NCBI GenBank assembly: GCA_015501585.1
Contig: JADNRY010000039.1
Span: 295,478 to 359,477, forward strand
From: Rhodocollybia butyracea
Lineage: Eukaryota > Basidiomycota > Agaricomycetes > Agaricales > Omphalotaceae
Length of the DNA: 64,000 nucleotides
Direction: 5' to 3'
A program made the position numbers and the translations under genes. This document shows, one piece after another, positions 4,256 to 53,013 of this stretch; position 1 is the first letter of the stretch; every line of letters begins with the position of its first letter. The notes below the pieces were generated by a model that did not search any database, was not told the origin of the DNA, and saw only the letters and a list, made by a program, of their open reading frames with translations.

Positions 4256-4627
4256 GACCGCTATCAATTGAATTTTGGACAATACTTATCGTATCAGTAT
4301 GTACGATCGGAGAGCAGAGTAGGGAGCGGAGCACTATGGGCGTGTTAGCCTGGATTTCTATGGACAGGCTTGGGCGTACAGTATAGTATCAGTGCCAACG
4401 CATCTTCGCACCAGTACTGGTACTGGCTTAGCATACACAAGGAACTACATCCAGGAACTTTGTTTATCCAAGATTCACCTGAGCAAATCAACGGGAATGC
4501 GAGGGCGAATGCGGGGGCGAGGGCGTGGGCGTACGCGGGATACTGAAGCCCAAGGGTAAGAGTTTCGGATGATGTATCGGGGAGATTAGTACGTTCTTCA
4601 TAAATTCCACTTTCAAAAACTCTCCAT

Positions 4628-5296
4628 TCATCGTTTCCCAATATGAATGTGTCTTGTATTTGTGAAGACTGACGGGACGGCCTCATCCAGGTCGGGATAG
4701 GCCACAACAAGTTTATACGGGGCACCTGGGGGGTCTGAGCTATAAAGGCCTAGATATCTTTGACCATAGGAGATGCGGGAGCGACCACTCTCAGGTATCC
4801 GAGCTATCAAAGCATATACGAGGCGCATAAGTCAAACTGGATCTGGGAGCAAGTACTCAGGCACTCACTACCGCTGGCTATCCACCCAATACAGGGTACT
4901 TTAGCGCAGCGCTTCCCTCCGGTGACTATGACATAAAGCCACCCCCGTCTTCCTCCTTCAGGCTCCCGTAGACGTTCGAATTCTACCGGTTCGCCTTCCT
5001 CATGCAAGGCTGTATTGATTATTCCTTGGAGGGCCGATTCAATATTAGGACTGTCTGGATATGGCTTAATAGGCTTGTAATGACCTTTACTATCAATGTA
5101 GGTCGCGATTCGGATGAGCTGGTAATATGGCATGTGGGCTTTACGTCTGGTATGATTACCGTAGCAAAACACTTACAGGTCCGTAGCTTTCATGCGCCTC
5201 CGGTTGTCCTGTACTAGGTCCTGTTTCCATTGGCAGGGGGCATACTGCAAGTATGGAACTCGCTACGAATGTCAAGAGAAGAAGACCAGAGCGCAT
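4628..5296 (-). CDS. Small secreted protein, left-cluster copy B
   Basis: Three exons: complement(join(4628..4803,4869..5118,5177..5296)), 181 residues, GT..AG introns at the same places as copies A and C. Signal peptide MRSGLLLLTFVASSIL, then AVCPLP. The core exon holds VTGGKRC followed by PCIGWI. The last exon has YLGLYSSD and LVVAYP, then stops early. Relative to A and C the frame changes just before the conserved FMKN-like tail, and an open alternative frame continues past the stop, so the C-terminus is probably truncated by a small indel. It lies in the same orientation as A and C with its own duplicated promoter. Function unknown. Confidence 0.75.
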
Positions 5297-6906: not shown

Positions 6907-7813
6907 TCACTTGGGCGAACCAGAGAGAGTCTTGGGCGAACCAGAGAGAGTCCAGGGCGAACTTGAAAGCTGGGGTGAACGCGGCGGGGGCGTATTCAAG
7001 GGCGAATTCGAGGGCGAATTCAAGGACGAATGCGTGATAGAGAAGCCCAGGGGTAGGAGTTGCGGATGATGTGTTGTGAGGCTATGTGTGTTCTTCATAA
7101 ATTCCACATTCAAAAAGTCTTTGTTAATCTTTTCCCATTCTAAATGCGTTGGGTCCCTTATAACCGTGGGTTGGGCGCCAATCTTTATATTGGGATAGGC
7201 CACAACGAGGTTAAACGGACTACCTGGGCTGCCTGAGCTAAGGCCCAGATATGCTTGATTATGAGGATTGGTTGCACCCTCAGGTAGTACATCGCCTATC
7301 TGTATCCGAACTATCAAAGCATATATGAGACGCACAAGTAAAACTGGATATGGGAAAAAATGCTCACGACCTACTGCTATCCACCCAAAACATGGTTCTG
7401 CAGTGCAGTGCTCCCCTCCAGTGACTTTGACATAAAGCCAATTCCATTTTCCTTCAGGCTGTATTAAACCATTGAGTTCTACCAATTTGTTTGCGTTTCC
7501 GTCCAAACCGAAGGCTACAGCGATCGTTGTTCTGAGGTCATCTTCAACCTCATCATAATGCTTTGTGCGATGGGTCTTTGGTAGCTCAGGCTTGGGTTCA
7601 CCATGACGATCGATGAACTGCACGACAAGCTGGCAATATGTGGGCTTTCCGTGTAATATGATTACCGTAGCAAACACTTACTACAGGTCCGTCACTTTCA
7701 TGCGCCCCCGGGTGTCCTGTACTAGGCCCGGCTAGTCCTGTTTGCATTGGGAGAGGGCATACAGCAAGTATGGAACTCGCTACGAGTGTCAAGAGAAGAA
7801 GAGCGGAGCGCAT
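6907..7813 (-). CDS. Small secreted protein, left-cluster copy C
   Basis: Complement(join(6907..7310,7368..7629,7682..7813)), 265 residues, the longest left-cluster member. Signal peptide MRSALLLLTLVASSIL. Exon 2 has FIDRHGEPKPELP, then VTGGEHC and the motif C-x3-PCFGWI. Exon 3 has YLGLSSGS, LVVAYP and EFMKNT. A Ser/Pro/Thr-rich tail follows, with repeated SGSPK and LSSSP elements that A and B lack or have in diverged form. Intron phases match A and B. It lies head-to-head with SNX3 across about 770 bp, so the two may share a divergent promoter. Unknown function. This copy has the most complete motif set and is the best candidate for a working member of the left cluster. Confidence 0.8.
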
Positions 7814-14744: not shown

Positions 14745-14900
14745 GAAAACAAAGAGTGTGAAAAAATCAGAGCACTGAAGCCGTATAGTAGTGAGAGAAA
14801 TGCCGGGCCGATTATTACCGACTAGGCCTGAAACAATTACCCATAATTACACCCGGTGTCAGTATAAAGTCGCCATTGTTGGAAGAAATGCCATGTAGTA

Positions 14901-16214
14901 ATGACTAGGCTTCTGCGCCATCAACCTTTCAAAGGTCTTTATCTGACCTTTCAGCTGTTCAGCACCGTTTTAGTGCGAATTCCTCTCTGGGTGGCATTAG
15001 CAATCCCGCCGTAAATATTCTCACTTTCCGCTCTATTTAAGCTCATTTCGTTGGTAGTTCCTGGCGTCCCAGAGCTCAATGGTCAATAAGAAGGGTCGTG
15101 CAGCTGAAGCTCCTGCGTCTTATACTCGCAATCACCAAAACGTGAGAGTCTAGAACCACTAAAAAACTAATATTCATCTCCGCTCAGCACAGGCAATAGC
15201 AAAACTCCCAACCATACTGCCATCACCCCGGTCGACCAAGCAGATCCTCATTCTCCTGCAGCACTATGGATATCACCTATTCCTAGCCAACTTGTTCGCG
15301 ACGAACTAGCTATATGGGCCACTGCTGCCGACATTTCGCCTGTACGAATACCAGGATACTGGCTAAACAAAAAGGGTTCCCATATAACCGTGTCTGCTCC
15401 TCCAATGCCAGGAGAAAAAGTCGTCTATGCTTTACATGGTGGAGGCTTTCGTGCGCTCTCCGCTCATCCCTCGGATCCCACTGCAGCAATTGCACACGGA
15501 CTGTTGCAACATGTCGATACTGTCCAACGCGTATTCTCGTGCGAGTATCGTCTTACTTTAGCAGATAGTTCGGGAAACAACGAACTCCCCAACCGATGCT
15601 TCCCAGGAGCATTGATAGATGCACTCGCAGGGTATATCTACCTCGTCGAGACTGTAGGTTTCGATCCACAAGATATCATTGTAGAAGGCGATAGCGCTGG
15701 AGGTAACTTGGCTCTTGCTCTCACTCGGTATCTTGTCGAGCATCCGAATTCCGGCTTCCCTGCGCCTCCTGGTGCCCTTGTCCTGTTGTCGCCATGGGTA
15801 AATCTTGGCACGCCTATTTCTGGAGTTCGTCCCTCTTGGATCAACAATGCCAGATGTGACTACATTGGCCCTGATGTTGACATTGTTGGGTACCTTCGCG
15901 CCGCTGGGGCGTATGTAGGCCCCCATGGACTTGGTGCTGCCGACATAAACCCATATATATCCTCGGCCTCGGTGAATCCTACGATGAAGGTTGATTTCAA
16001 AGGTTTTCCAAGAACATTCATCACTTCCGGAGGCGCAGAGGTGTTTTATGATATGCATTGTGTCTTGAGAGACAGAATGGTTAGGGATCTTGGTCCAGAT
16101 ATGGTCAGATTTCACTTCGCGCCTCATGCAGTGCATGATTGGCTCGGTCTTACCTTTCATGAGCCAGAACGAACGGAAGCGCTCAGAGAAATTGCTGCCT
16201 GGCTTACCTCTTAA
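14901..16214 (+). CDS. Alpha/beta hydrolase (HSL-like esterase/lipase)
   Basis: Three exons: join(14901..15010,15073..15141,15188..16214), 401 residues. Oxyanion-hole motif HGGGF, nucleophile elbow GDSAGG, and a late HDW supplying the catalytic His, as in hormone-sensitive-lipase-type (Abhydrolase_3) esterases. The N-terminus is hydrophobic (LYLTFQLFSTVLVRIPLWVALAI) and could be a membrane anchor, common in the agaric members. The start was chosen because the ATG at 14901 gives this conserved lead and intron phases then agree through both short introns. The substrate cannot be told. A decayed tandem copy follows at 16511. Confidence 0.9.
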
Positions 16215-16510
16215 GTTTTAGTTGTACCATAAGGTATTTTGTCTCTGAATTTATTTGAAGTGCGGTTCTCAAGTTGAACGCGACCAGTATCCGTCTGTAG
16301 CAAGGGAAGGTGCTATCCACTATCAAGGTTGAACGCAATAAGGAAAGATATCACTCACATAAGATCGGCCGGCTTCATCGTCTATGCTAATCTTATCCTT
16401 GGATATGATGATACACGCACCCAGATATGATGCTACACGGACATCCGACGCCAGTCAGCTGAACGACAACCACAGGTATAAAATCGCATCGTCAGAAGAA
16501 ATGCCATGTA

Positions 16511-17832
16511 ATGCCTAGGCTTCTGCGCCATCAACCTCTCAAAGGTCTTTATCTGACCTTTCAGCTGTTCAGCGCTGTTCTGGTCCGGATTCCTCTCTGG
16601 ATAGTGTTGGCAATTCCGGCGTAAAAGTTGTCGCTTTCCGCTCTATTCAAGCTCATTTCTTTGGTAGATCCTGGCGTCCTAGAGCTCAATGGTCAATAAA
16701 AAGGGTTGTGACGTTGAAGCTTCTGCGATTTATACTCGCCATTGACAAAAAGTGAGAGTCCAGAAAGGCTAGTCCAAGAAATAATAGTCACCTTCATCGA
16801 TCATCCAGTACAGGCATTATAAAAACTCCCAATCATACTGCCATCACCCCGGTCGATCAAGCAGATCCTCATTCTCCCACAGCACTATGGATAACACCTA
16901 TTTCTGACAAACTTATTCGTGATGAACTGGCGATATGGGCCGCTGCTGCTGCCATTTCCCCCGTACAAATACCAGGTTACTGGCTAAACAAAAAGGGTTC
17001 CCATATTGTCATGTCTGCACCTCCAATGCCAGGAGAAAAAGTCATCTATTCTTTACATGGCGGAGGCTTTTGCGCACTCTCCGCTCATCCCTCAGATCCC
17101 CCTGGGGTCATTGCTCGAGGATTATTGCAACATGTCGATTCTGTCCAGCGTATATTCTCATCCGAGTACCGTCTTACTTCAACAGATAGTCGGGAAAAAC
17201 CAACTCCCTAATCGGTGCTTCCCAGGAGCACTGATAGATGCACTCGCAGGGTATATCTACCTCGTCAAGACTGTGGGTTTCGATCCACAAGATATCATCG
17301 TGGAAGGCGATAGCGCTGGAGCTAACCTATCTCTTGCTCTTACTCGGTACCTTGTCGAGCATCCGAATTCCGGCTTCCCTGCGCCTCCTGGTGCACTTAT
17401 CCTGTTATCACCATGGGCAAACCTCGGCAAACCCATTTCTGGAGATCGTCCTTCTTGGATTAATAATGCCTATTGCGATTACATTGGGTCAATGCTGATA
17501 TTGATCAATATCTTGACGCCATTAAGGCTTATGTAGGTCCTCATGGACTTGGTGCTGCCGATGTAAATCCATTTATATCCCCCGCGTCGGTGAACCCTGC
17601 GATGAAGATTAGTTTCAAAGGTTTCCCGAGAACATTTATCACTTCGGGAGGCGCAGAGGTGTTTTATGATATGCAATGTGTCTTGAGAGACAGGATGGTT
17701 AGGATCTTGGTCCGGATATGGTCAAATTTCACTTCGCGCCTCATGCAGTGCACGATTGGCTTGGTCTTCCCTTTCATGAACCGAACGAACAGAAGCGCTC
17801 AAAGAAATTGCTGCTTGGGTTGCTGCTTCTTG
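16511..17832 (+). pseudogene. Decayed tandem copy of the alpha/beta hydrolase
   Basis: Same exon layout as the intact copy (exons 16511..16620, 16683..16751, then from about 16814), and HGGGF and GDSAGA are still readable. The main exon is broken several times by base losses relative to the paralogue: near 17190-17205 (two bases), near 17490, near 17705 (GGG to GG) and near 17780. The nucleophile elbow has GDSAGA instead of GDSAGG. Promoters are also similar (GAAGAAATGCCATGTA in both). As given it cannot make a full enzyme. All the lesions are single-base losses, so part of them could be sequencing error, but their density compared with the clean paralogue favours a true pseudogene. Confidence 0.75.
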
Positions 17833-18259
17833 AGCTTTAGTTGTACGACTAACTTGTAAGGTATCTGACTCTAAATTTACCTGCAGTACGACAGAGTACG
17901 ACGCGAGGCGGAACGCGTTCCTTAGGAGGCTTACGCCAGCTCAGAGGTTCAACTTCAGTCCGGTATAGGAAGCACTATCACGAAAAATACTCACCCAACC
18001 GTCGCTAACCCCGCCGACCACGAGGCAACATGGTGCAGAAATCTGTGTTCCTAGATTCGTTGTAGCCTTCGACGAGCCACTCATAGTAGTGAGTAAATCA
18101 TGTTTAAAGTTCAATTTCCCAGTGGATCATGATCATTAAGCTTGAAGGCGAAACAGGTATATAGGTAGGTAGGATCATTAAAAGGCAAAAATCAGCTGGA
18201 AAAGCAAGGAGAACCTTGGAGAGACATGGTACCGAAAAGATATTTCTGCATATGTGGTC
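17833..18259. other. Intergenic region between hydrolase copy and transporter
   Basis: No coding sequence supported. Contains the 3' flanks of two convergent genes. Confidence 0.4.
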
Positions 18260-27749: not shown

Positions 27750-28912
27750 ATGCTTATGACCACGGGTATCTATTGCCTGGGGCTCATCTTCTTCTCTGCG
27801 CTTATCTTTGCTGTGCATGGGGCGCCCACCCCCGTTAGATTTTACGAGCCAGCTTTGATTTCATTTATTCACGACTCTGTAGAAATCCGAGGACTACTCT
27901 GTGACTATTTTCGATAAGGACACCTTCAAACCAGTTCTGAAAGGGGTTAAAGCTGCCACGAGAGTACAGATGACAAGGATGATTAACAAGTTGAAGGCCA
28001 AAAACTTGCAGAAGCCCTCCGTTATCCTTTATTACAACACCGCACCAGAGAAGAGCGGAGAACCCACAACCGTTGACTATAAACAGATGATGATGATTCG
28101 TTTTGTGCTCCAAGGAGGGACTACTTGTGACAAGCATCCGTGCTTTGGGTGGATCCAGTTTAATGGGTTTAACATCTTTGGTTCAATCCACAGCACCAGG
28201 ACCGACGGTGGGTGGGACAGAGATCGATACGACCCAGAAGGGATTGGGGAGGAGCAAGGAAATAGTTACAATACTGAGTTTGTGAAGAGTAAAGGATCTT
28301 GGCTGAAGGAATGGAATGAGGTGACCTGGCCGGGGGTCGCGGAATGGTTGAAAGTGAATAAGCCACTGAAGTCATCAATACCGTCGGGCATAAAAAGAGA
28401 GGGGGAGGGAAAGGAAGGGCAGACTCAGCAAGGAGCGTCCAAGAAAGTGAAGGGTAAGCAAGCCAACGTTCAGCGATATCATAGCCGCTGAGCCGATCTA
28501 CAAAGTTCCGCCTCCCATCGAGTCAGTGGAACAAAATGGTAAGTGGGCCAATACCACCGAGTGCGCTGAGCTGACCATTGAAGTGACAACAGACACTCCA
28601 CAGGATGGCACTAAGTTTAAGTTCTTCGGCTCGGGTGCCTTCCGAGGATCTCCTGGGTCTCCAGCTAATTATCCGGAACAAAAATGTAAGCTGGCTAGAA
28701 TCGAGTGCGCTGAGCTGACCATTGAAGTGGAAACAGACATTTCTGAACTAGTACATCATGATAAAGATCCCTTCATGGGTCATGAAGCAAAGGACACACA
28801 TACGGTAAGCAGCAAGCTCAAACCGACTTGGACATTAGTGAGAGATGTTGCCACTGGGCTGACTGTATGACCTTAGAGTGGTAGCGGCAACAAAGGACTT
28901 CAACATGAGTAG
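27750..28912 (+). CDS. Modular secreted protein R1 (right-hand array)
   Basis: Exons join(27750..27833,27883..28453,28506..28538,28593..28685,28737..28804,28877..28912), 294 residues in one frame. Exon 1 is a signal peptide (CLGLIFFSALIFAVHG). Exon 2 is the family domain: VTIFDKDTFKPVLKGV, a Met-rich helix, then VLQGGTTC-DKHPCFGWI and FGSIHS, ending in a Lys/Glu/Gly-rich linker. Then come short exons of 33 and 93 nt, each phase 1-1, separated by introns of about 52 nt that resemble one another and the introns of R2-R4. The last exon ends KGLQHE. The C-x3-PCFGWI motif is shared with the left cluster. No known domain; an extracellular, effector-like role is inference. Confidence 0.75.
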
Positions 28913-29059
28913 CTGACGATGATCCCAGAGTACCCAAGTAAGTGAATCAACATTAAGATTATAACTGCTGAGCTGAATGAGGCTATAGTGGCTTGTGGAG
29001 TGATTGAAATCTCCATATGCTAAAGACGGTTCTACCACATACAGTGTATTCTTGTTTTC

Positions 29060-29110
29060 CTCGCTCTCGCATTCCTTGCTCTGTCATCAGTTGTTCAACG
29101 ATACCTCGCC
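29060..29110 (+). pseudogene. bS6m last-exon relic, left part (array unit 2)
   Basis: GATACCTCGCC corresponds to the start of the CGATACCTCGCCGCGCAC segment in bS6m exon 3. It is cut by the foldback element at 29110 and resumes at 31451. The preceding CTCTCGCATTCCTTGCTCTGTCATCAG is the junction found before every bS6m relic. Confidence 0.7.
29103..29110. repeat. 8-bp target site duplication (left)
   Basis: ACCTCGCC here and again at 31451-31458, immediately outside the terminal inverted repeats. It is present once in the intact bS6m exon. Confidence 0.85.
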
Positions 29111-31450
29111 CACCTCATATGCCCGGTAAAGCTAGATAATAGCCTTTGACATGGGGGGGGTGATGGTGTAGGCAGTTGTCATGTTGAACCACTATTGTAC
29201 GGTAGCGGAATAAAAGCGCAATATTTCATGTGGACTTTGACATGAGGGATCACTCGGGTACCCGGAAAGGTAGTACCGAGATTGCGCGTTGCCGCCCCTG
29301 ACTTTGCGCCGTCTTGCGCCGCCTCCAAGCCGCCTCCTGAACGAACCATCTCCTGTCCTACTCCCTCCCTTGCTTTCTGGTATCCTAATATAAAGCTCAC
29401 GCTGTCATAACCTTACAACTGTACAGCCCCAGTATGACAGGCCTGTACATAGTGTATAAGTGACCACTGTTTAGATAAGTTGCACAATGTTGTCCAAATA
29501 TACCTAGATTAATGTACAAACAGACTCTCTCAAAACCGTTTGAGAGGTTGTTGGCTCCGAAAATACCTATGAGGCACAAGAACGTCAGGAAATGAGAGAA
29601 AGTGACACGGAAGCACCAGCATACGGTTAATGAATTTGAGCTTCATAAAGAGTGCTATAGTACACGCAACTCGCCATATAAAATTATCCAATGTTCAATG
29701 CCTTAAGGTACTCTTAATGGAGTCTTCCTTATTCTACCTTACCATCTTATCTTCGGTAGTAGTTGCAGTTAAGAAATCACACATTGCTCATATATTGTAA
29801 GCATTTGGTAGTTTTAGATGTAGAGCAGTCAAAGAGGCTCTCTATGTAGTTTATATGGCCAACTATTGCTTTGTAGCTGTGCCGAACGATGAGGAGAGGT
29901 GAGGATGGGAGCGTGTGAATGTACCGGAAAGGTATGCCGGTGCTTCCGCTCGTTGTCCCAAACGGTGAACAGAGGAGTGAGATAGTTTCCGATTAGGTGC
30001 GGACCTCACGGAATCTCATGAAGAGGCGCATTCACCCCCCTTGAGGCGAAAATTTTATGCAAATATAGCAGGAACAGCTTGGGATATTCTTCCCTTGTGA
30101 AAGAGATACAGTAAAACTCGTGCTCACTATGCAAAACAGTGAGCTCAAGAGAGCAATGCTAGTACTATGGCCTTCGTGTTTGAGAAATGGGGCCATCTAT
30201 AGAAGTCCTCTACTATACATTAAATCTGGCTATATTGAAACAGTCTGACGATCTTAATACTAGGTTACTTACATTCATGCAAGTCGTTGTACTTACCTGC
30301 ATCCTTAAAGACTTGTTACCCGCTTAAGACTGCTGAACATTTTCAATAATTCTGATTTTGCCTTATTATGTTGATATCCTGTACGCGACTCTACTGCCAG
30401 CATATCAAGCTTATAGATGAAGTCGTTCCTTCTTGAGCACACTGTTTTAGATAGTGAGCACGAGTTTTACTGCATCTTTTTCACAAGGAAAGAATATTTT
30501 AAGCTACTGTCAGTATATTGGCCGTAATTGTGGCATGAAGAGGGACGACTGTACCTCCCCATGAGCTTCCGGGAGGTCCGCACCCACTCGGAAATTATAC
30601 CATTCCTCTGTTCACCGTTTGGGACAACAAGCGGAAGCACCGGTAAACTTTTCCGGTACATTCACACGCTCCCAGCTTCACCTCTCCTCGTCGTTTGGCA
30701 CAGCTACAAAGCAATATATGGTCGTTTAACTTACATGGAGAGCTTCCTTGACTGCTGTACATTGAAAACTATCAGATACTTACAATATACGAGCAATGTA
30801 TAATTTATCAACTGCAACTACTGAAGATTCGGAGATGATAAGGTATAGTGTAGTAGTAGAATGAGGAAGACTCCAGTAAGAGGTAGGTATATGGTAGTAC
30901 CTTAACGCATTGGGTACCTAATACTTGTGACCTCTATATGGTGAGTTGCTTGCACCATAGCACCCTCTAGGAAGCTCAAATTCATTGACTCTCAAGTCTG
31001 AAACATGTCCTTGCACCTCAGAGGCGTTCCCGGAGTTCTCGAACGATTCCGAAAGAGTTTCTTCGTACGATAATTTAGAGAACATTGTACTTAAACGACT
31101 TATCTATACGACGGTGTCACTTGTGCATGCCCTTATGTACATACTGGGGCTGCCATATAGTTGTTAGTTTATAACGTGAGCTTTATTTTACCAGAAAGCA
31201 AGGGAGGGAGTAGGGCGGGAGATGGTTCGTTCAGGAGGCGGCTTGGAGGCGGCGCAAAGTCAGGGGCGGCATACGCGCAATCTCGGTACTACCTTTCTGG
31301 GTACCCGAGTGATCCCTCTGTCAAAGTCCACATGAAATATTGCGCTTTTATTCCGCTACCGTACAATAGTGGTTCAACATGACAACTGCCTACACCATCA
31401 CCCCCCCCATGTCAAAGGCTATTATCTAGCTTTACCGGGCATATGAGGTG
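29111..31450. mobile_element. hAT-like non-autonomous foldback element
   Basis: 2340 bp bounded by 8-bp target duplications. It begins CACCTCATATGCCCGG and ends with the reverse complement CCGGGCATATGAGGTG. The arms are long imperfect inverted repeats of about 1 kb (29111 to about 30150 against about 30440-31450). For example, CATGGGGGGGGTGATGG at 29150 faces CCATCACCCCCCCCATG at 31396, and GTAAAACTCGTGCTCACTAT at 30112 faces ATAGTGAGCACGAGTTTTAC at 30451. Arm identity looks lower toward the middle. No transposase frame is seen. The 8-bp duplication and CA..TG ends fit the hAT superfamily; the superfamily call is inference from these two features. Confidence 0.85.
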
Positions 31451-31560
31451 ACCTCGCCGCGCACTATATGATCCCCCACCAAAATTGTGCAACACCCAAT
31501 GGTCTTAGATGTACCATCTCCAAATTTGGCGCAAAGCCTTGGCGCGTTGGAGATATTTAG
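31451..31560 (+). pseudogene. bS6m last-exon relic, right part (array unit 2)
   Basis: Continues the bS6m exon 3 copy after the element: CCGCGCACTATATGATCCC, then AAAATTGTGCAACACCCAATGG and CCATCTCCAAATTTGGCGCAAAG. Diverged, with indels, no splice acceptor or upstream exons. 31451-31458 is the second copy of the target duplication. Confidence 0.75.
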
Positions 31561-31589
31561 CGACATTATTGAATGACATTTATCCGACA

Positions 31590-31995
31590 CCCTAAACACC
31601 TGATATATCCCGCATAATGCAAATGACCTTGACACCCAGGTTGTAAATCTTCCTTGTCTCCTTCAGCACCTCGCCGTCTGAAGAGGGAGAAACGCTGTCA
31701 TCCCCACCTTCTCCGCACCAAGATCAATTCGAGAATCAAGGACTCGGACTTGCTAACCTGCCCTGCCGCTAGCCGTTCCCCCGTACTCACGCGTTCCAGC
31801 ATACGCAAAAAATCAGGTGTACTTGTTTTCAACGCCTTATTGTCCTGAGCGATAATGGGTAGAGATGAACCAAATTTACATCAATGATGTTTCTTTCACT
31901 CCAAATACGACTTCGCGGATCCGAGTTGCTTAAACATGGCTATATAGATTCCACGCTGATGAAGAGCTCGAGGGACTTTAGCCATAGAACCAGCC
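31590..31995 (-). pseudogene. HAD hydrolase 3'-half relic (array unit 2)
   Basis: Matches 38795-39300 of the intact gene with several deletions: TGACCTTGACACCC, TTGTCTCCTTCAGCACCT, CGCTGTCATCCCCACCTTCTCCGCACC, then ACGCGTTCCA and TAGATTCCACGCTGATGAAGAGC. The frame is lost. Confidence 0.7.
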
Positions 31996-32123
31996 ACATG
32001 GTCATGAAACGTTGGACAAATTATAAAACAGCGAGCTGGAGGCGAATCCTCCTCAACTGCTGGCCCAGTTCAAATTCCACACACACTTTACTCAACGACC
32101 AAAAATTCTTCAGCTCATTTTCG

Positions 32124-33387
32124 ATGCGTATAACCCCGCGTATCCATTGCCTGGGCCTCTTCTTCTTCTCTGTGCTCGTCTTTGCTGTGCACGGAATGCC
32201 CACTCGTGGCAAGGCCGCTGCGTATAAAGCGTCCGCTCGCAAGACTATGCATAGAGAGCCCACCGCTGCGCAGGTAGATTTACCGAGCCAACTTCGAATT
32301 CATTTATTCATGGTTACTTAGAAGGAATATGTTGTGACTATTTTGAATGAGACCTTCGAACCAATCGAAGGAGTTACTCGTGCCACAAAATCCCAGATAA
32401 CACAGATGATTAAAGAGAAGTTCAAATTGCAACATGTTGAAGGCCTCCGGATGGACAGTATTATGGAATACAAAACTGAAACAGCGAAGCCTCATGAAAA
32501 TGGCTTCCCGGCGTTTGCGACTCAAGCTCGTTTTGTGCTCCAGAGACGTAACGACAAGCATCTACATTTCGGGTGGATCCGGCCTACAGATTTTATCTTC
32601 ATTGGTCTACAGCATAAGCGCCGACCCAAATGGACATCAAGAATGGAAACCATATCGATGGCATACAAGGCATGAAGCGTATGAGACGGAGGAAGTAAAA
32701 AGTTTTGATACGGAGTTTTTGGCGGCTCTTAATAAAGTTTCGCTGGCGGAGTGGGAAAAGCGGGTCAAGGATTACCAAGAGCGTTACAGAAAACCAAAGA
32801 GGAAGTACAAACCAAAGATGAGGAAAACAATCAGTAACACTATGGCCGCTGCCAGTGGACAATTTGCGATCCCAGAGTTGAATCATATCTCAGCGGAACA
32901 AAATGGTAAGCAGGCCAATATTGTCAATGGGTGTGCTGATCTGACCATGATCCCAGCTGATTTTAATGATCCTAACGGCCCCTTCAGCGGACTCATCAAC
33001 GACGAGGCAGCTTGGGATCCGGAACACAATGGCCCAGGTAAGAAGGCTAGCATATGATCGGGTACCATTGAGGTGACAACAGTAGATCCTTGGCTCCTGA
33101 CCACATTCAGCGGACATTGGCCCCCCATCTCCAACTTGAAGTCAGCCGGGCATCAGGAACACAATGGTAAGCAGGCCGAACATCAACGAGTGCGCTGAGC
33201 TCACCATTGAGGTGACAACAGGCATCCCGGAAAGTTCTATGCCGCCCCGCGGATCTCCTGGGCCCTCAGCTTCTCCGAAACAAAACGGTAAGCAGGTTAA
33301 CTGTGACACCGAGTGCTCTGAGCTGACCTGACACCATCCATCTCAGGTATGAAACCAAATTCCCAGGATCCTTACCTGATGCGCTAG
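32124..33387 (+). pseudogene. Modular secreted protein R2, probably frameshifted
   Basis: Exons 32124..32273 (signal peptide, FFFSVLVFAVHG, then a Lys/Arg-rich stretch), 32322..32905, 32957..33037, 33083..33166, 33222..33287 and 33347..33387. The three internal short exons are 81, 84 and 66 nt, all phase 1-1, with the array's repeated intron between them. The domain exon is frame-broken near 32605: compared with R3, five bases are missing in the ATTGGT..CTACAGC stretch, and the downstream half (EWEKRVKDYQERY, MAAASGQF) reads only after the shift. The donor of the last intron is also lost, so the protein would end DPYLMR. The exon sum is one base over a multiple of three, as a five-base loss predicts. 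Either a pseudogene or a damaged allele. Confidence 0.7.
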
Positions 33388-33589
33388 CATAGCTCAAGCC
33401 TATTTGGAGTCTTGTACTATATCAGCGAGAGATAGCCACTGAGCTGAGTGTACAATCCTAGGGACGCGGCAGTGATTATAACCAAAGGAGTAGCTGCTGA
33501 ACTGAGCGAAGTCATAGTTTGAAATCTCCGAGTACCGCATACGTGTTTTCTTCACCTTTGCATTTCCTTGCTCTATCATCAGTTATTTG

Positions 33590-33735
33590 TTACGCGTTAC
33601 GTTTTGATACCTGCCACGCACTACGACATAATTATGCGACACCCTATCGTTCTTAGATGTACCATCTTGAAGCCTGGCACCAAATAAGACCTCGTGTTGG
33701 ACGGACCAAAAACCATACATGGCGAGAAAAGCCAA
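33590..33735 (+). pseudogene. bS6m last-exon relic (array unit 3)
   Basis: GATACCTGCCACGCACTACGACATAATTATGCGACACCC, TACCATCTTGAAGCCTGGC and GACGGACCAAAAACCATACATGG match bS6m 25117-25245 with substitutions and an in-frame stop (AAATAAGACC). Confidence 0.75.
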
Positions 33736-33769
33736 TATCGTTGAATACCTCAAAACCTAACTAAGCCTA

Positions 33770-34290
33770 ACACTCGACATAATGCAATACTTGATCTAAC
33801 CCTTGGATGACCTTGACACCTTGTAAATCTTGTTTGTCTCCTTGAATTCAACACCTGGTCTTCTAAGGAGCAACGCTGTCATCCCCACCTTCTCCGCACC
33901 ATGATAGTCCCTGCCGTTTTTCGTTCGTCCGAAGTTCGAGAATCAAGCTTTCAAAATTTCAAGGCTAGGGTCCCAGGAACAGGACTTGCCTGTCTATCTC
34001 CAACGTACACTGTCCTGCTGTTATTCGTTCCCCCCGTAGAGTAAGTACTCACGCGTGCCTTGGTGTATGCAGAAAAAATCTCTGGTGCTGGTCTTTCAGT
34101 CCCTTCTCGCTCGCTCAAGACAATGGGTACCATGGGATCGGGAAATCTGAGATCCTTGAGAACCAAATCTACATTAATGCTTCTTTTGAGTGACCTCCAA
34201 AGAAAGGATGACGACTTCGCGCGTCCGGATTGTAGGCGCTGATGACGGCTGTGTAGATTGCGTTCAACTCATGGAGGGATTTAAAATCGG
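33770..34290 (-). pseudogene. HAD hydrolase 3'-half relic (array unit 3)
   Basis: Covers the equivalents of HAD exons 6, 5 and 4. On the minus strand the LVLKDL-FPD and VLSE-EG stretches are still legible near 34090-34165, but the reading frame is interrupted and exons 1-3 are absent. Confidence 0.75.
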
Positions 34291-34601
34291 TCCAGATTTT
34301 CCTTCTGCAATTATTGCTGCATTCATAATTTCATTGCAGTTTCACAGAACCTCGACTATGCTAGTAGACTCAAACCGGAGAATGGCTGGTTCGCGAGCCT
34401 CGTAGGCACACATCTCCGGTGCTTCGGACACTAATCAAGGGGCGGAACTCCATCGAGTCCATCCACATGGTCATGAAACGTTGGACAAATTATAAAACAG
34501 CAAGCTGGGGGCGAATCCTCCCAACTGCTGGCTCAGTTTTTCTTCCACACACTCTACTCATTGTCAAACTCAACGACCAAGAATTCTTCAGCTCATTTTC
34601 G

Positions 34602-36271
34602 ATGCATATAACCCCGCGTATCCATTGCCTGCTCATCTTCTTCTCTGTATTCATCATTGCTGTGCACGGAATGCCCACTCGCAAGACTAGAGCGTCCACT
34701 CGCAAGACTAGAGCGTCCACTCACAAGACTAGAGCGTCCACTCGCAAGACTAGAGCGTCCACTCGCAAGACTAGAGCGTCCACTCGCAAGACTAGAGCGT
34801 CCACTCGCAAGACTAGAGCGTCCACTCGCAAGACTAGAGCGTCCACTCGCAAGACTAGAGCGTCCACTCGCAAGACTAGAGCGTCCACTCGCAAGACTGT
34901 GCATAGAGAGTCCACCCCCAAGACTGGCCCTGCGCAGGTAGATTCACCGAGTCAACTTCGATTTCATTTATTCATGATTACTTAGAAGAAATTTGTTGCG
35001 ATTATTTTGAATGAGGCCTTCGAACCAATCCTGAAAGGAGTTACATCTGCCACAAAAAAAGAAATAACACTGATGATTAAAGAGAAGTTCAAACCGCAAT
35101 TTCAATTGCAACATGTTAAAGGCCTCCGGATGGAGAGTATTCTGGAATACAAAACAGCGCCGCATGAAAGGGGTGAACAAGGATCAGCGGCTCGAGCTCG
35201 TTTTGCGCTCAAGATACGTGACGACAAGCATCTATATTTTGGGTGGATCCTGCCTAGTATAGAATCTGGCATCATTGGTTCAATCTACAGCATAAGCCCC
35301 AGCCCAAATGAACACCAGAAATGGAAACCATATCGATGGCGTCGAAAGCATGTAGCGTATGGGACGGAAGTGAAAAAGTTTGATAAGAAGTTTGTGGAAG
35401 CTCTTAATGAAGTTTCGGTGGCGGAGTGGGAAAAGCGGGTCAAGGGTTACCAAGATTGTTATACCAAACCATACAAACCAAGGACGAGGAAAACATCCAG
35501 TATGGCCGTTGCCAGTGAGCAATCTATGATCGCAGAGTCGAATCGTATCTCAGCGGAACCAAAAGGTAAGCAGGCTAACATCGGGTATGCTGAGTTGACC
35601 ATTGAGAGCCATCCCAGGGGGGTCTCCGACCGATTCTGTCAGCACATCTCATAGCTCCGAGTCAGATGGGCATTCGGGATACAATGGTAAGCAGGCTAAT
35701 ATGGGGTACGCTGGGTTGACAATTCCATCCCAGAGAATCCTGGGTCTCCGGCCGATTCCGTCAGCACATCTCATAGCTCGGAGTCAGATGGGCATTCGGG
35801 ATACAATGGTAAGCAGGCTAACATATATTGTCAATGGGTGCGCTGAGCCGACCACGATCCCAGTTTTTGACGATCATAACCGTGCTTTGGCCAGACTTTT
35901 CCCCATCTCCGACCCTCCGGATCCGACATACGATGGTAAGCAGGACTTGAGCTTGAACGTTGAATATCATGAGCTAACCATTGTGAGAACAGCTGGCATT
36001 AGTTTCCGCGAATCTCCTGGGCCCCTGGCCTCAGCTCCTCAGGAACAGCGTAACGGTAAGCAGGTTAACCGTGACATCGAGTGCTTTGAGCTGATCATTG
36101 AGGCGACACCGTCCATCTCAGGTTTGACACCAGGCTCCAACGATCCTTCCATAAGTCCTGCGCTAGGAATGCACATAGTAAGCTCAAGCCACTAAGCTGA
36201 CCGTATAATCTTACTATTAGGTCGACAGTAGTGACCATACCAAAGGAGTCGAGCAACCCTTATGCTGTTGA
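34602..36271 (+). CDS. Modular secreted protein R3 with basic repeat tract
   Basis: Exons join(34602..34937,34986..35565,35618..35686,35734..35808,35864..35935,35993..36055,36122..36177,36221..36271), 433 residues in one frame. Exon 1: signal peptide (LLIFFSVFIIAVHG), then ten copies of a basic heptapeptide TRKTRAS. Exon 2: family domain with VAIILNEAFEPILKGV, YFGWI, IGSIYSIS and VAEWEKRVKGYQ. Then internal exons of 69, 75, 72 and 63 nt, all phase 1-1. Two consecutive ones are near duplicates, encoding ADSVSTSHSSESDGHSGYN-like modules. Introns begin GTAAGCAGG and are 48-66 nt. Here the PCFGWI cysteines are replaced (HLYFGWI). The most elaborate member of the array. Function unknown; the charged repeat could bind polyanions, which is speculation. 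Confidence 0.75.
34677..34898 (+). repeat. Coding minisatellite, 21-bp unit, 10 copies plus partial
   Basis: Ten consecutive 21-bp units encode TRKTRAS (the third reads THKTRAS), followed by a partial TRKT. Units are virtually identical, so expansion is recent. R2 has a single degenerate equivalent (KASARKTMHRE) and R4 has none. Because the unit is a multiple of three, copy changes leave the protein in frame. Confidence 0.95.
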
Positions 36272-36369
36272 GCTGAGTGATGTCATAGAAGCCTGTTTGA
36301 GTCAAAGACGGTTCTACCGCATACGTATTTCTTGTTTTCTTCACTCTTGCATTTCCTTGCTCTATCATC

Positions 36370-36500
36370 GGTTATAATTGCCATGCACTGCAACATAATT
36401 ATGCGACACCCTATCGTTCTCCAATGTACCATCTTGAAACCTGGCACCAAATAAGACCTTGCATTGGAGGGGCGAAAAACCATACATGACGAGAAATTAC
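36370..36500 (+). pseudogene. bS6m last-exon relic (array unit 4)
   Basis: ATAATTATGCGACACCC, GTACCATCTTGAAACCTGGC and GGAGGGGCGAAAAACCATACATG match bS6m exon 3 and are closest to the unit 3 relic (shared AAATAAGACC stop). Confidence 0.75.
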
Positions 36501-36509
36501 ACCCTGTAG

Positions 36510-36930
36510 TAAATCTTGTTCGTCTCCTCTTCTAAATAGCAGCGCTGTCATCCCTGCCCTCTCTGCACCGCGATAGTTCCTGTCATTTTTCGTTCGTCAG
36601 TTCGAGAAAATCAAGGTCCCAGGAACAAATTACGACTTGCCTGTCTGATTCATCTCTAACGTGGACACTTTGTCCTGGTGTTATCCGTTCCCCCTGTAGG
36701 GTACTCACGCGTTCCAGTGCGCAGAAAAATCTCCGGTGCTGGTTTTTCAGTCCCTTCTTGTTCGCTCAAGACGATGAGTACCATGGATTCGGGAAATTTG
36801 AGATCCGAGAACCAAATCTACATCAATACTTCTTTTGAGTGGCCTCCAAAGAAAGGATGACGACTTCGCGCGTCCGAATTGTAGGGCTGATGACGGCTGT
36901 GTAGATTGCGTCAGGGATTAGCGCTTAGCC
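36510..36930 (-). pseudogene. HAD hydrolase 3'-half relic (array unit 4)
   Basis: Equivalent to the unit 3 relic: TTGTTCGTCTCC, CGCTGTCATCCC, TTACGACTTGCCTGTCTGATTCATCTC, ACGCGTTCCAGTG and GATGACGACTTCGCGCGTCC. Many indels; no open frame. Confidence 0.75.
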
Positions 36931-37254
36931 ATAGAACCGGAGCTAGAGATTTATAAAATCGGTACCAGATTTTCCTTCTGCAATCATTGCTGCATTCATA
37001 ATTTCATTGCAGTTTCACAGAACCTCGAATATGTTAGTAGACTCAAACCAGAGAACGTCTGGTTCGCGAGCCTAGTAGGCACACATCTGCACACATATCC
37101 GGTGCTTCGGACAATAATCAAGGGGCGGAACTCCACCGAGTCCATCCACATGGTCATGAAACGTTGGACAAATTATAAAACCCTCTCAACTGCTGGCTCA
37201 GTTATACTTCCACACACTCTACTCAACGACCGAAGACTCTTCAGCTCATTTTCA

Positions 37255-38409
37255 ATGCTTATAATTCCGCGTATCCATCGCCTGGGCCTCATCTTCTTCT
37301 CTGTGTTCATCTTTGCTGTGCACGGAATGCCCACTCGCAAGCCTGGTCCTGCGCAGGTAGATTTAACGAGCCAAAGGCCAACTTCAGTTTCATTGATTCA
37401 TGAGTACTTAGAAGGAATTTGTTGTGACTATTTTCAATGAGGCCTTCGAACCAATCCTGGACGGAGTGTCAGCTACCTCAAAACGCCAAATTACCCGGAT
37501 GATTAAAGCGATGTTTCCCTTGGAAGACAATATCGATATGACCAAAATTCTAGGTTACAACAGTGCAAGAGCCTCGGACCCACAAGGTCCAGCAGTTGTG
37601 ACTCGTTTTGTGCTCGAGAGACATAACGGGCAGCCATGCACATATTTCGGGTATATCCTGCCTACACAATCAGATGCAACTGGCATCGCTGGTTCGATCT
37701 TCAGCTTGGAGACCGACTCAAATGAACATCAGGGGTGGAAAGGAAAGCAATGGCATCCAGGGCATGTGGAGATCGATAAAGTAGTAGAGTTCGATAGTAA
37801 GTTTCATGAGACTCTTAAAACCTTTTCGCCGGAGAAGTGGAAAGCAATGATCGAGAAGGTCCGGGAATGGAAGGAGAGGCTTCCAAAATCGAACATAGCA
37901 CATCTGAACCCGGAGAGTCGTAAAAATGGTAAGCAGGCTAACATCGGGTACGCGAAGTTGACCTTTAAAGTGACAACAGCCATCCCGGACTTGAAGAATC
38001 CTGGGCCCCCAGCCGATTCCCCCAGCAGATCTTCTTCTGAGTCCCGCATCTCCAAGTCACCTGAACATCCGACATACCATGGTAAGCATGCCAACATCAA
38101 GTGCACTGAGCTAACCATTGAGGTGAGAACAGATATCTTACATAGTCTCCGCGGATCTGCTGGGCCCTCAGCTCCTCAAAAACACAATGGTAAGCAGATC
38201 AACCGTGACATCGAGCGCTCTGAGCTGACCATTGAGGTGTGCATGTGAACAGACATCCCTAACCCACCTTACAATCCCTTCTTGGGAGTGGGCGGCGATT
38301 ACACTGATACACACATCGTAAGCTCAAGCCTACTCGAAAGTGAGAGATAGTCACCGAGCTGACTGTATGACCTTAGAACAATGATTATACCAAAGGACTC
38401 CATGAGTAA
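37255..38409 (+). CDS. Modular secreted protein R4 (right-hand array)
   Basis: Exons join(37255..37356,37412..37928,37980..38081,38133..38189,38253..38317,38377..38409), 291 residues in one frame. Signal peptide exon (LGLIFFSVFIFAVHG, MPTRKPGPAQ). The domain exon has VTIFNEAFEPILDGV, VLERHNGQPCTYFGYI, AGSIFSLE and a Lys/Trp-rich C-terminal helix. Internal short exons of 102 and 57 nt are phase 1-1 and encode Pro/Ser-rich modules (NPGPPADSPSRSSSES; GSAGPSAPQKHNG). The last exon ends KGLHE, matching R1. The three consecutive introns share GTAAGCA, CTGACCATTGAGGTG and AACAG with each other and with R1-R3. No frame damage, so with R1 and R3 this is the best candidate for an active gene. Confidence 0.78.
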
Positions 38410-38569
38410 GCAGGCCAACACTGAGTGAGGTTATAGCTGACGATGATCCCAGGAGTTAAAGAGGACTTGGGTAAGCGAATCAACATTGAGATTATAGCTG
38501 CTGAGCTGAGTGAGGTTATAGAGGAGACGGTTCTACTGCATACTTGTTCTTGTTTTCTTAACTCTTGCA

Positions 38570-50657: not shown

Positions 50658-51092
50658 ATACCCCTGCATGGGGACTTGGTTTTTCCATGACTCCCTTGAG
50701 CTCCCTCTCTTCTTATTAGGACAGAATGTGCCCCAGAAGCTTAATCATTTATTCCATAGCTAATGTGGTGTTAGTTGTAGACTACCATCTGCAGTCTACC
50801 TTCCCTGTGTGAGTGGGACTTTCTGGGGCTGGCCGTTCCTTCTGTTTATTCGTGGGATGGCGGAGTCGTGTTGAAATATGCGCATGTATGGCGTCATGTG
50901 TGTACCTCAGTGGCTGTAGCTCCTTCCTCCCTTTCTCTGACCACTTCGGAGGCTGGGCGGAATTCCAGCCGCATGGTCACGAAATTTTGGACAGATTACT
51001 ATGTATAAGTAGTGATTCTTCCCAACTGCTGGCTCAGTGCAAGTTCTACACACACTTTACTTGACACCCCAAGAATCTTCATCTTATTTTCG

Positions 51093-51370
51093 ATGCTTAT
51101 GACCCCACGTATCCATTGCCTGGGACTCATCATCTCTGTGCTCATCTTTGCGGTGCACGGAATGCCCACCCGCAAGCCCTCCCGGCAGGCAGATTCAACG
51201 AGTCAAATTTAATTACATCTATTCACGACTCTTCAGAAACGTGAGAGATATTTTGTGACTATTTTCGATGAGAACTTCTCTCCAGTTCTGGATGGTGTTA
51301 CAGCCGGCACGAAACCACAAATTACTAAGATGGTTAAAAACACGTTATTAGGCCTAAAATTGGCCTAAGG
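51093..51370 (+). pseudogene. Truncated secreted protein R5
   Basis: Promoter block at about 50970 and exon 1 (51093..51188, signal peptide CLGLIISVLIFAVHG, MPTRKPS) match R1-R4. Exon 2 from 51237 reads YFVTIFDENFSPVLDGVTAGT and KPQITKMVKN. After about 51352 the similarity ends and the frame stops at 51368-51370, so the PCFGWI part and all cassette exons are missing. The donor of intron 1 is GC (GCAGAT) where the others have GTAGAT. It is separated from the array by the S41 gene, the Cys-rich gene and the Copia element. Confidence 0.8.
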
Positions 51371-53013
51371 CGTGTAACCGTACATTTTGACACTTTGTAC
51401 GTGTTATACAATGCAATAAGAGAGTTATACGGAGCCCGAGCGTGATAGCTGTTGCCGAGGCAAAGAACTTAACAATAATACTCAGCGAGCCGTGAAGGTA
51501 CGCCCACAAGCGTAGCCTAGAGCCAAGCTAGCGAGGATACCTGGGCTGCCCGGAGATGTGACGCTAGACGGTCAATCTAGTTATACCCAAGAGTGTATAC
51601 TCTCTAAACTACAGGACATCTCGAAGCGGGATAAGTACTAAGCCAACGCGTTACTCGAGGGAAGGAATTATGAGGGAAGGCATCCCTCGCACTAAGACCC
51701 CCAACGAGCTATGTTAAGATGTGGACTTTACAGTCCGTAACAATGGACCAGAACAATCCCGAGGGAAACCGTAGAGGTCTATTCGCGGCACCGGTCGCGA
51801 CCGTGAGGACGGTAGAGACATGCTTAGCGGACCTACGGAAAGCTACGCGCCGGGATAGCCTTGGCAAATCGAAACATTTGATCTTAGAAATCATACACGG
51901 AAGGTCTTATCCGTTAAAGCCGACTATCGGGAATCACTTGTACATACTCAGCGCAGTTGCTCGAGATTATCATAAGTGGTGTCGTTGGAAAGCTAGATAA
52001 CAGGTCTTCTCGAGAGAATGTTAATCACACTCAGGATGGACAGAACTATCCGAGGAATAGAATGAAACTCACCCAAGGGAAACCGGGCGGCGAGTGATCA
52101 TGAAGCGTAAAGGTACTCCTGACCCCGGAGAATTGTGGAGTAATCGGAGAAACCTCGCTCGGATCAAAACACTCTAAAACTATGTTAATCCTCACGAAAT
52201 CATATTTTACCTCTAATATATACCCAAGAATGGACTATTTCTTTATCGTGTGTACCATATATAGGCTGGAGTTTCCTTTCCGAGCCAGATTCCTCTGTTC
52301 CACTCTCTTTCCGTCTCTCTCCGTGTCTGTTTCATCTATTTTTCGTATTAAACTCTCTCTACTCAGTATATAAGCCAGATATATTTATTCAATAAGACAA
52401 GTTTCTTGCCCTCGACTTGACCGCTAAGACCAGTGCTCCGTAGAACGTCCCCACGGGATCAGTAGCGTGACGCCTCCTGACTTGGTTATCTTAAGAAAGT
52501 AATAAACTTCACGCGCTTCGCAAAGCCCATTTATATCTTGATCGAATTTAAGTGTGTAGAGTTCTCTCGAACTCCAGATCAACTCAAATCTAGTTGCTTC
52601 CTTAGAGGGGACGGCTTCTAGTAGGGGATTATTCGGCTCCAGAGTGAGGGTTCCTTAGTTGACTTCTTCACGAAGTTAGACGAGCCACTAAGATTGTGGT
52701 ACGAGTTCCTAGTGATTAAGTTCACTCACAATATCGTAGCTTGGCCCAGAGTTTGGTCGAGGACTTTACGGCGTCACAGCAGCTAGTGCCAGAGTTTGCC
52801 TAGGGTTGTTGACAAACCTCGAGATTACTATTCTAGCTAGAGCCAGAGTTTGCCTAGGAGAATCTTAGTTTCGTTGTATTGGTTTTGGTTTGGGTTAATT
52901 GATTTGGACATACATACCCGGTTCCCTCGTACACTCGTACACCTCAACTAGGCTTCTCTCGACTTAGTTCTAAGAGTTGTCTAAGCTTAGTTACCCACGT
53001 TAGCGCTACAGTC
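51371..53013. other. Probable Gypsy 5' LTR and leader
   Basis: No coding sequence. A TATA box at about 52365 and a CTCTCTCCGTGTC initiator-like tract precede it. It may contain LTR promoter, R/U5 and leader. The second copy needed to define the LTR was not seen. Confidence 0.45.

Follow-up and report, generated by a model that had tools for sequence, protein, structure and literature searches.

Short frame-neutral exons between closely similar introns in a family of probably secreted proteins from Rhodocollybia butyracea

Gene organization at the locus

The window, meaning the whole 64 000-nucleotide stretch that was analysed, corresponds to C705:295478–359477 of the R. butyracea assembly (95.6 Mb; GCA_015501585.1, contig JADNRY010000039.1). 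The sequenced strain, AH 40177, is a decomposer of forest litter, and its annotation is described as produced by the JGI pipeline and refined with RNA-seq (PMC8480192, in the part available). A hydrolase encoded in the window is 100% identical to an R. butyracea protein. Four related genes, R1–R4, lie on the plus strand and have a common layout: a signal-peptide-like exon, a short first intron, a long exon 2 and a series of short exons. The signal peptides were judged by eye; the original prediction of a secreted family is supported as probable. Exon 2 encodes a domain of approximately 150 residues with a CFGWI and GSIFS core, as seen in the family alignment. In the structure model most blocks of this domain have confidences of 75–86 and the tail is mostly below 50; exon 2 is thus predicted to be a folded domain and the Pro/Ser-rich cassette tail to be disordered. 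Boundaries in the tails were set with a splice rule blind to the reading frame, in which the donor is a match to the intron profile or GTAAGC and the acceptor is the first YAG that begins 39 nt or more downstream. This rule is the basis for the tail exons and introns given below in window coordinates unless another is stated.

R1 consists of exon 1 (27750–27833; sequence and spliced model), exon 2 with the folded domain (27883–28453; family alignment) and a short tail. The first tail intron (28454–28505) is of type B and is uncertain; it ends at an AAG acceptor and was missed by the YAG rule. The 33 nt cassette exon behind it (28506–28538; spliced model) requires this acceptor and has an uncertain 5′ end, the scored model yielding 12 nt instead. 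It is followed by a type A intron of 54 nt (28539–28592), a 93 nt cassette (28593–28685), a type A intron of 51 nt (28686–28736) and a 68 nt C-terminal exon with a PFMGH motif (28737–28804); both type A introns also match the intron profile.

R2 contains exon 1 with the signal peptide (32124–32273), exon 2 (32322–32905), an intron of 51 nt (32906–32956), an 81 nt cassette (32957–33037), an intron of 45 nt (33038–33082), an 84 nt cassette (33083–33166), an intron of 55 nt (33167–33221), a 66 nt cassette (33222–33287) and a predicted intron of 59 nt (33288–33346). Exon 2 is frameshifted relative to that of R3, which it matches in two tblastn pieces in different frames and 16 nt apart, and the gene model stops at 111 amino acids. 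R2 may be a pseudogene or reflect an assembly error.

In R3, exon 1 (34602–34937) carries the signal peptide and a 21 nt tandem repeat, and exon 2 (34986–35565; spliced model and family alignment) encodes the folded domain. An intron of 52 nt (35566–35617) leads to a 69 nt cassette (35618–35686), which is separated by an intron of 47 nt (35687–35733; gene model and intron alignment) from its 75 nt near-duplicate (35734–35808; gene model and exon comparison). An intron of 55 nt (35809–35863), a 72 nt cassette (35864–35935), an intron of 57 nt (35936–35992), a 63 nt cassette (35993–36055), an intron of 66 nt (36056–36121) and a C-terminal exon of 56 nt (36122–36177) complete the gene. The repeat in exon 1 (34654–34905) comprises eleven 21 nt units encoding TRKTRAS, one of them with H for R, and is absent from R1 and R4.

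R4 can be compared with a public protein, P0122, which starts at an ATG upstream of our exon 1 (37255–37356, with the signal peptide). Exon 2 with the folded domain (37412–37928; spliced model), the cassettes of 102 nt (37980–38081) and 57 nt (38133–38189), an exon of 65 nt (38253–38317) and an exon of 29 nt (38377–38405; based on P0122) all appear in P0122. The two type A introns of 51 nt (37929–37979 and 38082–38132), the introns of 63 nt (38190–38252) and 59 nt (38318–38376) and the last intron of 47 nt (38406–38452) are absent from it.

Extent of the family

The exon 1–2 DNA of R4 has 37 matches in the R. butyracea genome at about 35 places, or about 23 by a rough hand count that leaves out near-identical contig copies, and a P0121 protein query gives 41 exon-level matches. 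Many contigs form near-identical pairs, as expected of two haplotypes or a redundant assembly. A search of 21 sources with a profile built from 13 introns of the window gave 105 hits at E ≤ 1, spread over 18 of the sources; some of these hits are weak. Six family members carry public protein annotation. A single word-based protein search over 4720 candidates returned six matches at E ≤ 0.01, all from R. butyracea, and within the limits of that method none from elsewhere. R1–R4 thus belong to a family of probably secreted proteins that has been detected to date in R. butyracea alone.

Symmetry of the cassette exons

Exons between predicted introns were counted over the window and 17 fetched loci with intron matches, where the frame-blind rule gave 96 candidate exons, or 61 distinct ones after collapsing at 80% likeness. 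Multiples of three account for 43 of the 61 (binomial p = 3 × 10⁻⁹ against an expectation of 1/3), and 42 of these 43 are open in phase 1, which bears out the proposal of frame-neutral cassettes. All 11 internal exons named in the original prediction could be delimited and ten were reproduced exactly by the YAG rule. In the count the 75 nt exon of R3 was collapsed with its 69 nt near-duplicate, from which it was delimited separately; the pair, recognized earlier as near-duplicates, has a likeness of 0.87. The C-terminal exons of R1, R3 and R4 (68, 56 and 65 nt) are among the candidates that are not multiples of three; they are not symmetric and leave the same remainder in all three.

Similarity of the introns

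Forty-four distinct introns align to the consensus GTAAGCAGGCTAACATCGAGTGCGCTGAGCTGACCATTGAGGTGACAACAG with 57–100% agreement per kept column, and the likeness spans all kept columns, beyond the splice signals. The median number of matches per longer length is 0.65–0.66 for introns against 0.50 after shuffling, and 0.48 for exons against 0.45 (630 pairs of 36 distinct units in each case); picking donors by GTAAGC inflates the intron value somewhat, and part of it also comes from splice signals. The earlier observation that the introns are more alike than the exons is therefore confirmed. In the most alike tandem pair, the two R3 near-duplicates, the exons are 0.87 and their introns 0.81 alike. 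The conserved block comprises about nine bases before the donor together with the whole intron and ends at the acceptor; past the 3′ splice site the likeness is near chance (0.285 over the first nine exon bases).

A second type of intron, type B (GTAAGCAAGCCAACATTGAGAGATAGCC...), contains in-frame stops and directly follows exon 2 in several genes; types A and B alternate in the arrays at L044, L047 and C449. Intron identity averages 0.761 within a gene (51 pairs), 0.763 within a cluster (177 pairs) and 0.758 between clusters (718 pairs), with permutation p values of 0.36 and 0.32, so that intron similarity is without gene or cluster structure.

Searches of the genome with intron patterns gave 17 and 38 matches, and those outside C449, C925, C472 and C705:131959 fall in family arrays. 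Among these four places C449 was read and contains the same type of array, with no domain in 1.2 kb. This array (L051, C449:44300–45500, minus strand) has eleven intron-profile hits, some weak, in alternating types A and B over the 1.2 kb. The pattern matches on C925 are spaced as in the C449 array.

Splicing of the intervening segments

The introns of the window are 45–66 nt long. The tail introns have GT–AG ends and branch-like CTGAC or CTAAC motifs, and their removal restores one open frame, which are ordinary spliceosomal features. P0122 corresponds to R4 minus all five predicted tail introns, at exactly the same boundaries, and P0121 likewise lacks such segments for a gene on C1294. The introns of the original prediction are supported by their removal in the public R4 model, and because the published R4 protein is without exactly these introns, it is unlikely that the segments at R4 are retained or are no more than satellite DNA.

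The GTAAGC segments might instead be translated as a 17-residue repeat (GKQANIECAELTIEVTT). The 51 nt consensus can be read through in phase, retention of 26 of the 87 distinct introns would leave the frame intact and P0125 keeps one 51 nt segment as coding, a retention that is either an isoform or an annotation slip. However, the other 61 of the 87 would break the frame, conservation over the three codon positions of the intron columns (0.831, 0.824 and 0.848) has no codon-position bias, and the segments are removed in P0121 and P0122. We consider translation of these segments extremely improbable. The gene models of two further members, C1294_b and C705_x, stop early, and P0125 bridges C1294_b by a different splice.

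Substitution rates between contig copies

Rates were compared over eight near-identical contig pairs, stratified by pair, with expectations taken from the flank rate. The counts are small for introns (23 substitutions against 17.1 expected) and for cassette exons (three against 4.3), and exon 2 has 18 substitutions against 37.4 expected. With the most diverged pair left out, introns have 11 against 11.5 expected. An intron rate of 0.3 times that of the flanks is rejected (p = 6.5 × 10⁻⁹, or 8.9 × 10⁻⁴ minus the most diverged pair). Since their substitutions are as numerous as the flank rate predicts, the introns look neutral; exon 2 is under purifying selection and the cassette rates are indistinguishable from those of the flanks. 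The notion of conserved introns and variable exons thus holds as a pattern between paralogous units and fails as a current difference in rate, introns changing at the flank rate and cassettes no faster than expected from it. For exon 2, dN/dS is 0.48–1.06 over nine pairs, a range compatible with rapid, partly constrained change of the kind found in proteins meeting other organisms.

Exchange between paralogues

Comparison of paralogues c and e gave divergences of 0.05 and 0.09 per site for two array introns, against an exon 2 dS of 0.43, and the cassette between these introns has a dN of 0.155 and a dS of 0.131 (two synonymous changes). If intron change is neutral, the array segments found in different genes go back to later common ancestors than the domains to which they are attached, which is what exchange between paralogues predicts. 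A comparable contrast is found at the 5′ side. Across 600 nt upstream the divergence of R3 from R4 is 0.118 per site, compared with an exon 2 dS of 0.505; R3 is 81–95% like R4 upstream, and in exon 2 it is 45–69% like R4 and 77–89% like R2. R1 and R3 differ by 0.29 per site in the proximal promoter, 0.20 in the signal exon and 0.27 in the first intron, against an exon 2 dS of 1.06. The synonymous distances in exon 2 are possibly inflated by shaky alignment. Upstream, R2 is unlike R3 and R4 (33–45%) and also R1 (28–47% over most of the region); the upstream part of R2 may have been replaced, giving the low R2–R3 match there, and the R3–R4 contrast stands independently of it. The switch in R3 sits in the 5′ part of the gene, not inside the array, and among the genes compared no recombinant array was found together with both its parents; nor was a change of cassette number demonstrated between two alleles.

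Gene e differs between its contig copies in two places. In one copy a cassette exon is interrupted by about 1.3 kb of inserted sequence (from L032 ~9682 to L033 ~948 on C1294, compared with L034 7107 on C562), at which the public protein P0124 ends, and in exon 2 there is a 48-base difference in an LPGHKNID repeat.

A model for array turnover

We lean towards reshuffling of the arrays among paralogues, driven by recombination in the shared introns and kept in frame by exon symmetry. The repeated block, made up of the last nine or so exon bases and the whole intron, would provide scattered homology within arrays and between paralogues, and unequal crossing-over and gene conversion in such blocks would duplicate, delete and swap cassettes. 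The frame would survive these events because internal boundaries are nearly always in phase 1. Repeated exchange across the family would keep the introns recognizable while the exon bodies drift in sequence and length until they are unrecognizable. The likely use, which is a guess and the weakest step, would be to diversify the tail with which an extracellular protein meets other organisms. Putative isoforms made by exon skipping are possible. A bolder form of the proposal, which we hold to be doubtful, is that the block of about 60 nt (nine exon bases plus the 51 nt intron) is a shuffling element restricted to this family, carried by conversion to dozens of paralogues across many contigs and frame-keeping by design; it would act as an engine for new extracellular tails, with neutral introns that are more alike than the exons between them.

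Three other explanations of the arrays were considered. Selection might preserve the intron sequence, for instance for a role in choosing exons, with the arrays giving many isoforms by skipping in the manner of schistosome micro-exon genes (MEGs). Such selection would account for conservation of every kept intron column beyond the splice signals, for cassettes that mostly could be skipped without loss of frame and for the 51 nt intron kept as coding in P0125, but it is unlikely given the flank-level rate of intron change between near-identical copies. Alternatively, the intron, with or without the adjoining exon bases, might be a mobile introner-like element that spread in one family and split a pre-existing Pro/Ser tail. 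The lack of gene or cluster structure in intron likeness and the drop to near chance just past the 3′ splice site agree with such insertion, as do two relatives, M1 and M2, with long open reading frames and no intron-profile hit nearby. Independent insertions would mix phases, however, yet most of the exons are multiples of three, and the intron patterns are confined, as far as checked, to contigs with such arrays, whereas insertion of introners is described for many genes throughout a genome (PMC9860276, in the part available). We regard an introner origin as quite unlikely. Finally, the arrays might be mostly decaying pseudogene or satellite DNA, as the frameshift in R2, the early stops in the C1294_b and C705_x models and the C449 array without a domain match in the 1.2 kb read could suggest. 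Decay on this scale is very improbable in view of the deficit of changes in exon 2, the open frames of 42 of the 43 symmetric exons and the six members annotated as proteins.

Comparison with known systems

Parts of this organization are known elsewhere. Schistosome MEGs are described as mostly secreted, with many short symmetric exons and parts removable in frame (PMC4015677, in the part available). R1–R4 resemble them in having a signal-peptide exon (by eye) and many symmetric short exons (43 of 61 cassettes). They differ in that skipping in MEGs is known from transcripts, whereas the R1–R4 arrays are known from gene sequence and models, in that their cassettes of 57–102 nt are longer than strict micro-exons, and in their shared intron sequence, which is not among the MEG features described in the available part of PMC4015677; the likeness drawn here is one of design. 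In snake three-finger toxin genes (ASSET) the introns and signal peptide are reported to be highly alike between paralogues and the coding segments to differ (PMC2474615, in the part available), so that conserved introns likewise stand beside switched exon segments. However, these genes have three exons and no tandem cassette array, and the protein and host are different. Aphid bicycle genes, which encode putative effectors, have many small single-phase internal exons and very fast protein change, but their exons are in phase 2 and number about 17 on average, they carry CYC motifs and no intron family is noted in the available part of the description (PMC9168663).

Introner-like elements provide many alike short spliceosomal introns per genome in fungi and other eukaryotes (PMC4457414 and PMC9860276, in the parts available), whereas the R. 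butyracea introns are limited, as far as checked, to one family and have one phase inside arrays. SP7-like effectors of arbuscular mycorrhizal fungi are a repeat-containing family with an intron in common upstream of the first repeat; according to the available part of PMC11333574 this is a single conserved intron ahead of the repeats, unlike the intron between every module here. They are defined as a Glomeromycotina-specific family with a signature, and so come from a different phylum. No fungal family joining all of these features was found among the open-access papers searched. The original prediction that no described fungal family is organized in this way stands within those papers; outside the fungi, schistosome MEGs and snake three-finger toxins each show half of the arrangement.

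If the proposed reshuffling is correct, the modular secreted families of parasites and venomous animals would have a fungal equivalent here, in a decomposer that lives free. With introns that look neutral yet are family-wide, intron-mediated exon shuffling, which is usually inferred from ancient events, would become observable between strains. The assembly already contains several clusters as near-identical contig copies, and cassette turnover would thus be countable in a small strain panel.

Other features of the window

A palindromic element of about 2.3 kb (29103–31458) lies between R1 and R2. It has terminal inverted repeats of 132 nt that are 100% identical (29111–29242 and 31319–31450), is flanked on both sides by the same 8 bp, ACCTCGCC, and has the appearance of a hAT-like, non-autonomous foldback transposon that made an 8 bp target duplication. 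A second tandem gene group is located on the minus strand (406–1011, 4566–5127 and 6907–7677), with 39–63% identity among its members in protein segments and a CFGWI-like core in which a resemblance to exon 2 of R1–R4 was noted by eye. The copy at 6907 has a Pro/Ser tail without cassette introns, and the group may be a sister family whose tail is unsplit. A truncated family member at 50960–51375 retains the promoter, the signal-peptide exon and the start of exon 2, after which the sequence is unrelated, and the segment 51847–53187 recurs on C562 and C303 at 98–99%. An alpha/beta hydrolase gene is present as a tandem duplicate (14862–16264 and 16476–17890) with 84% identity.
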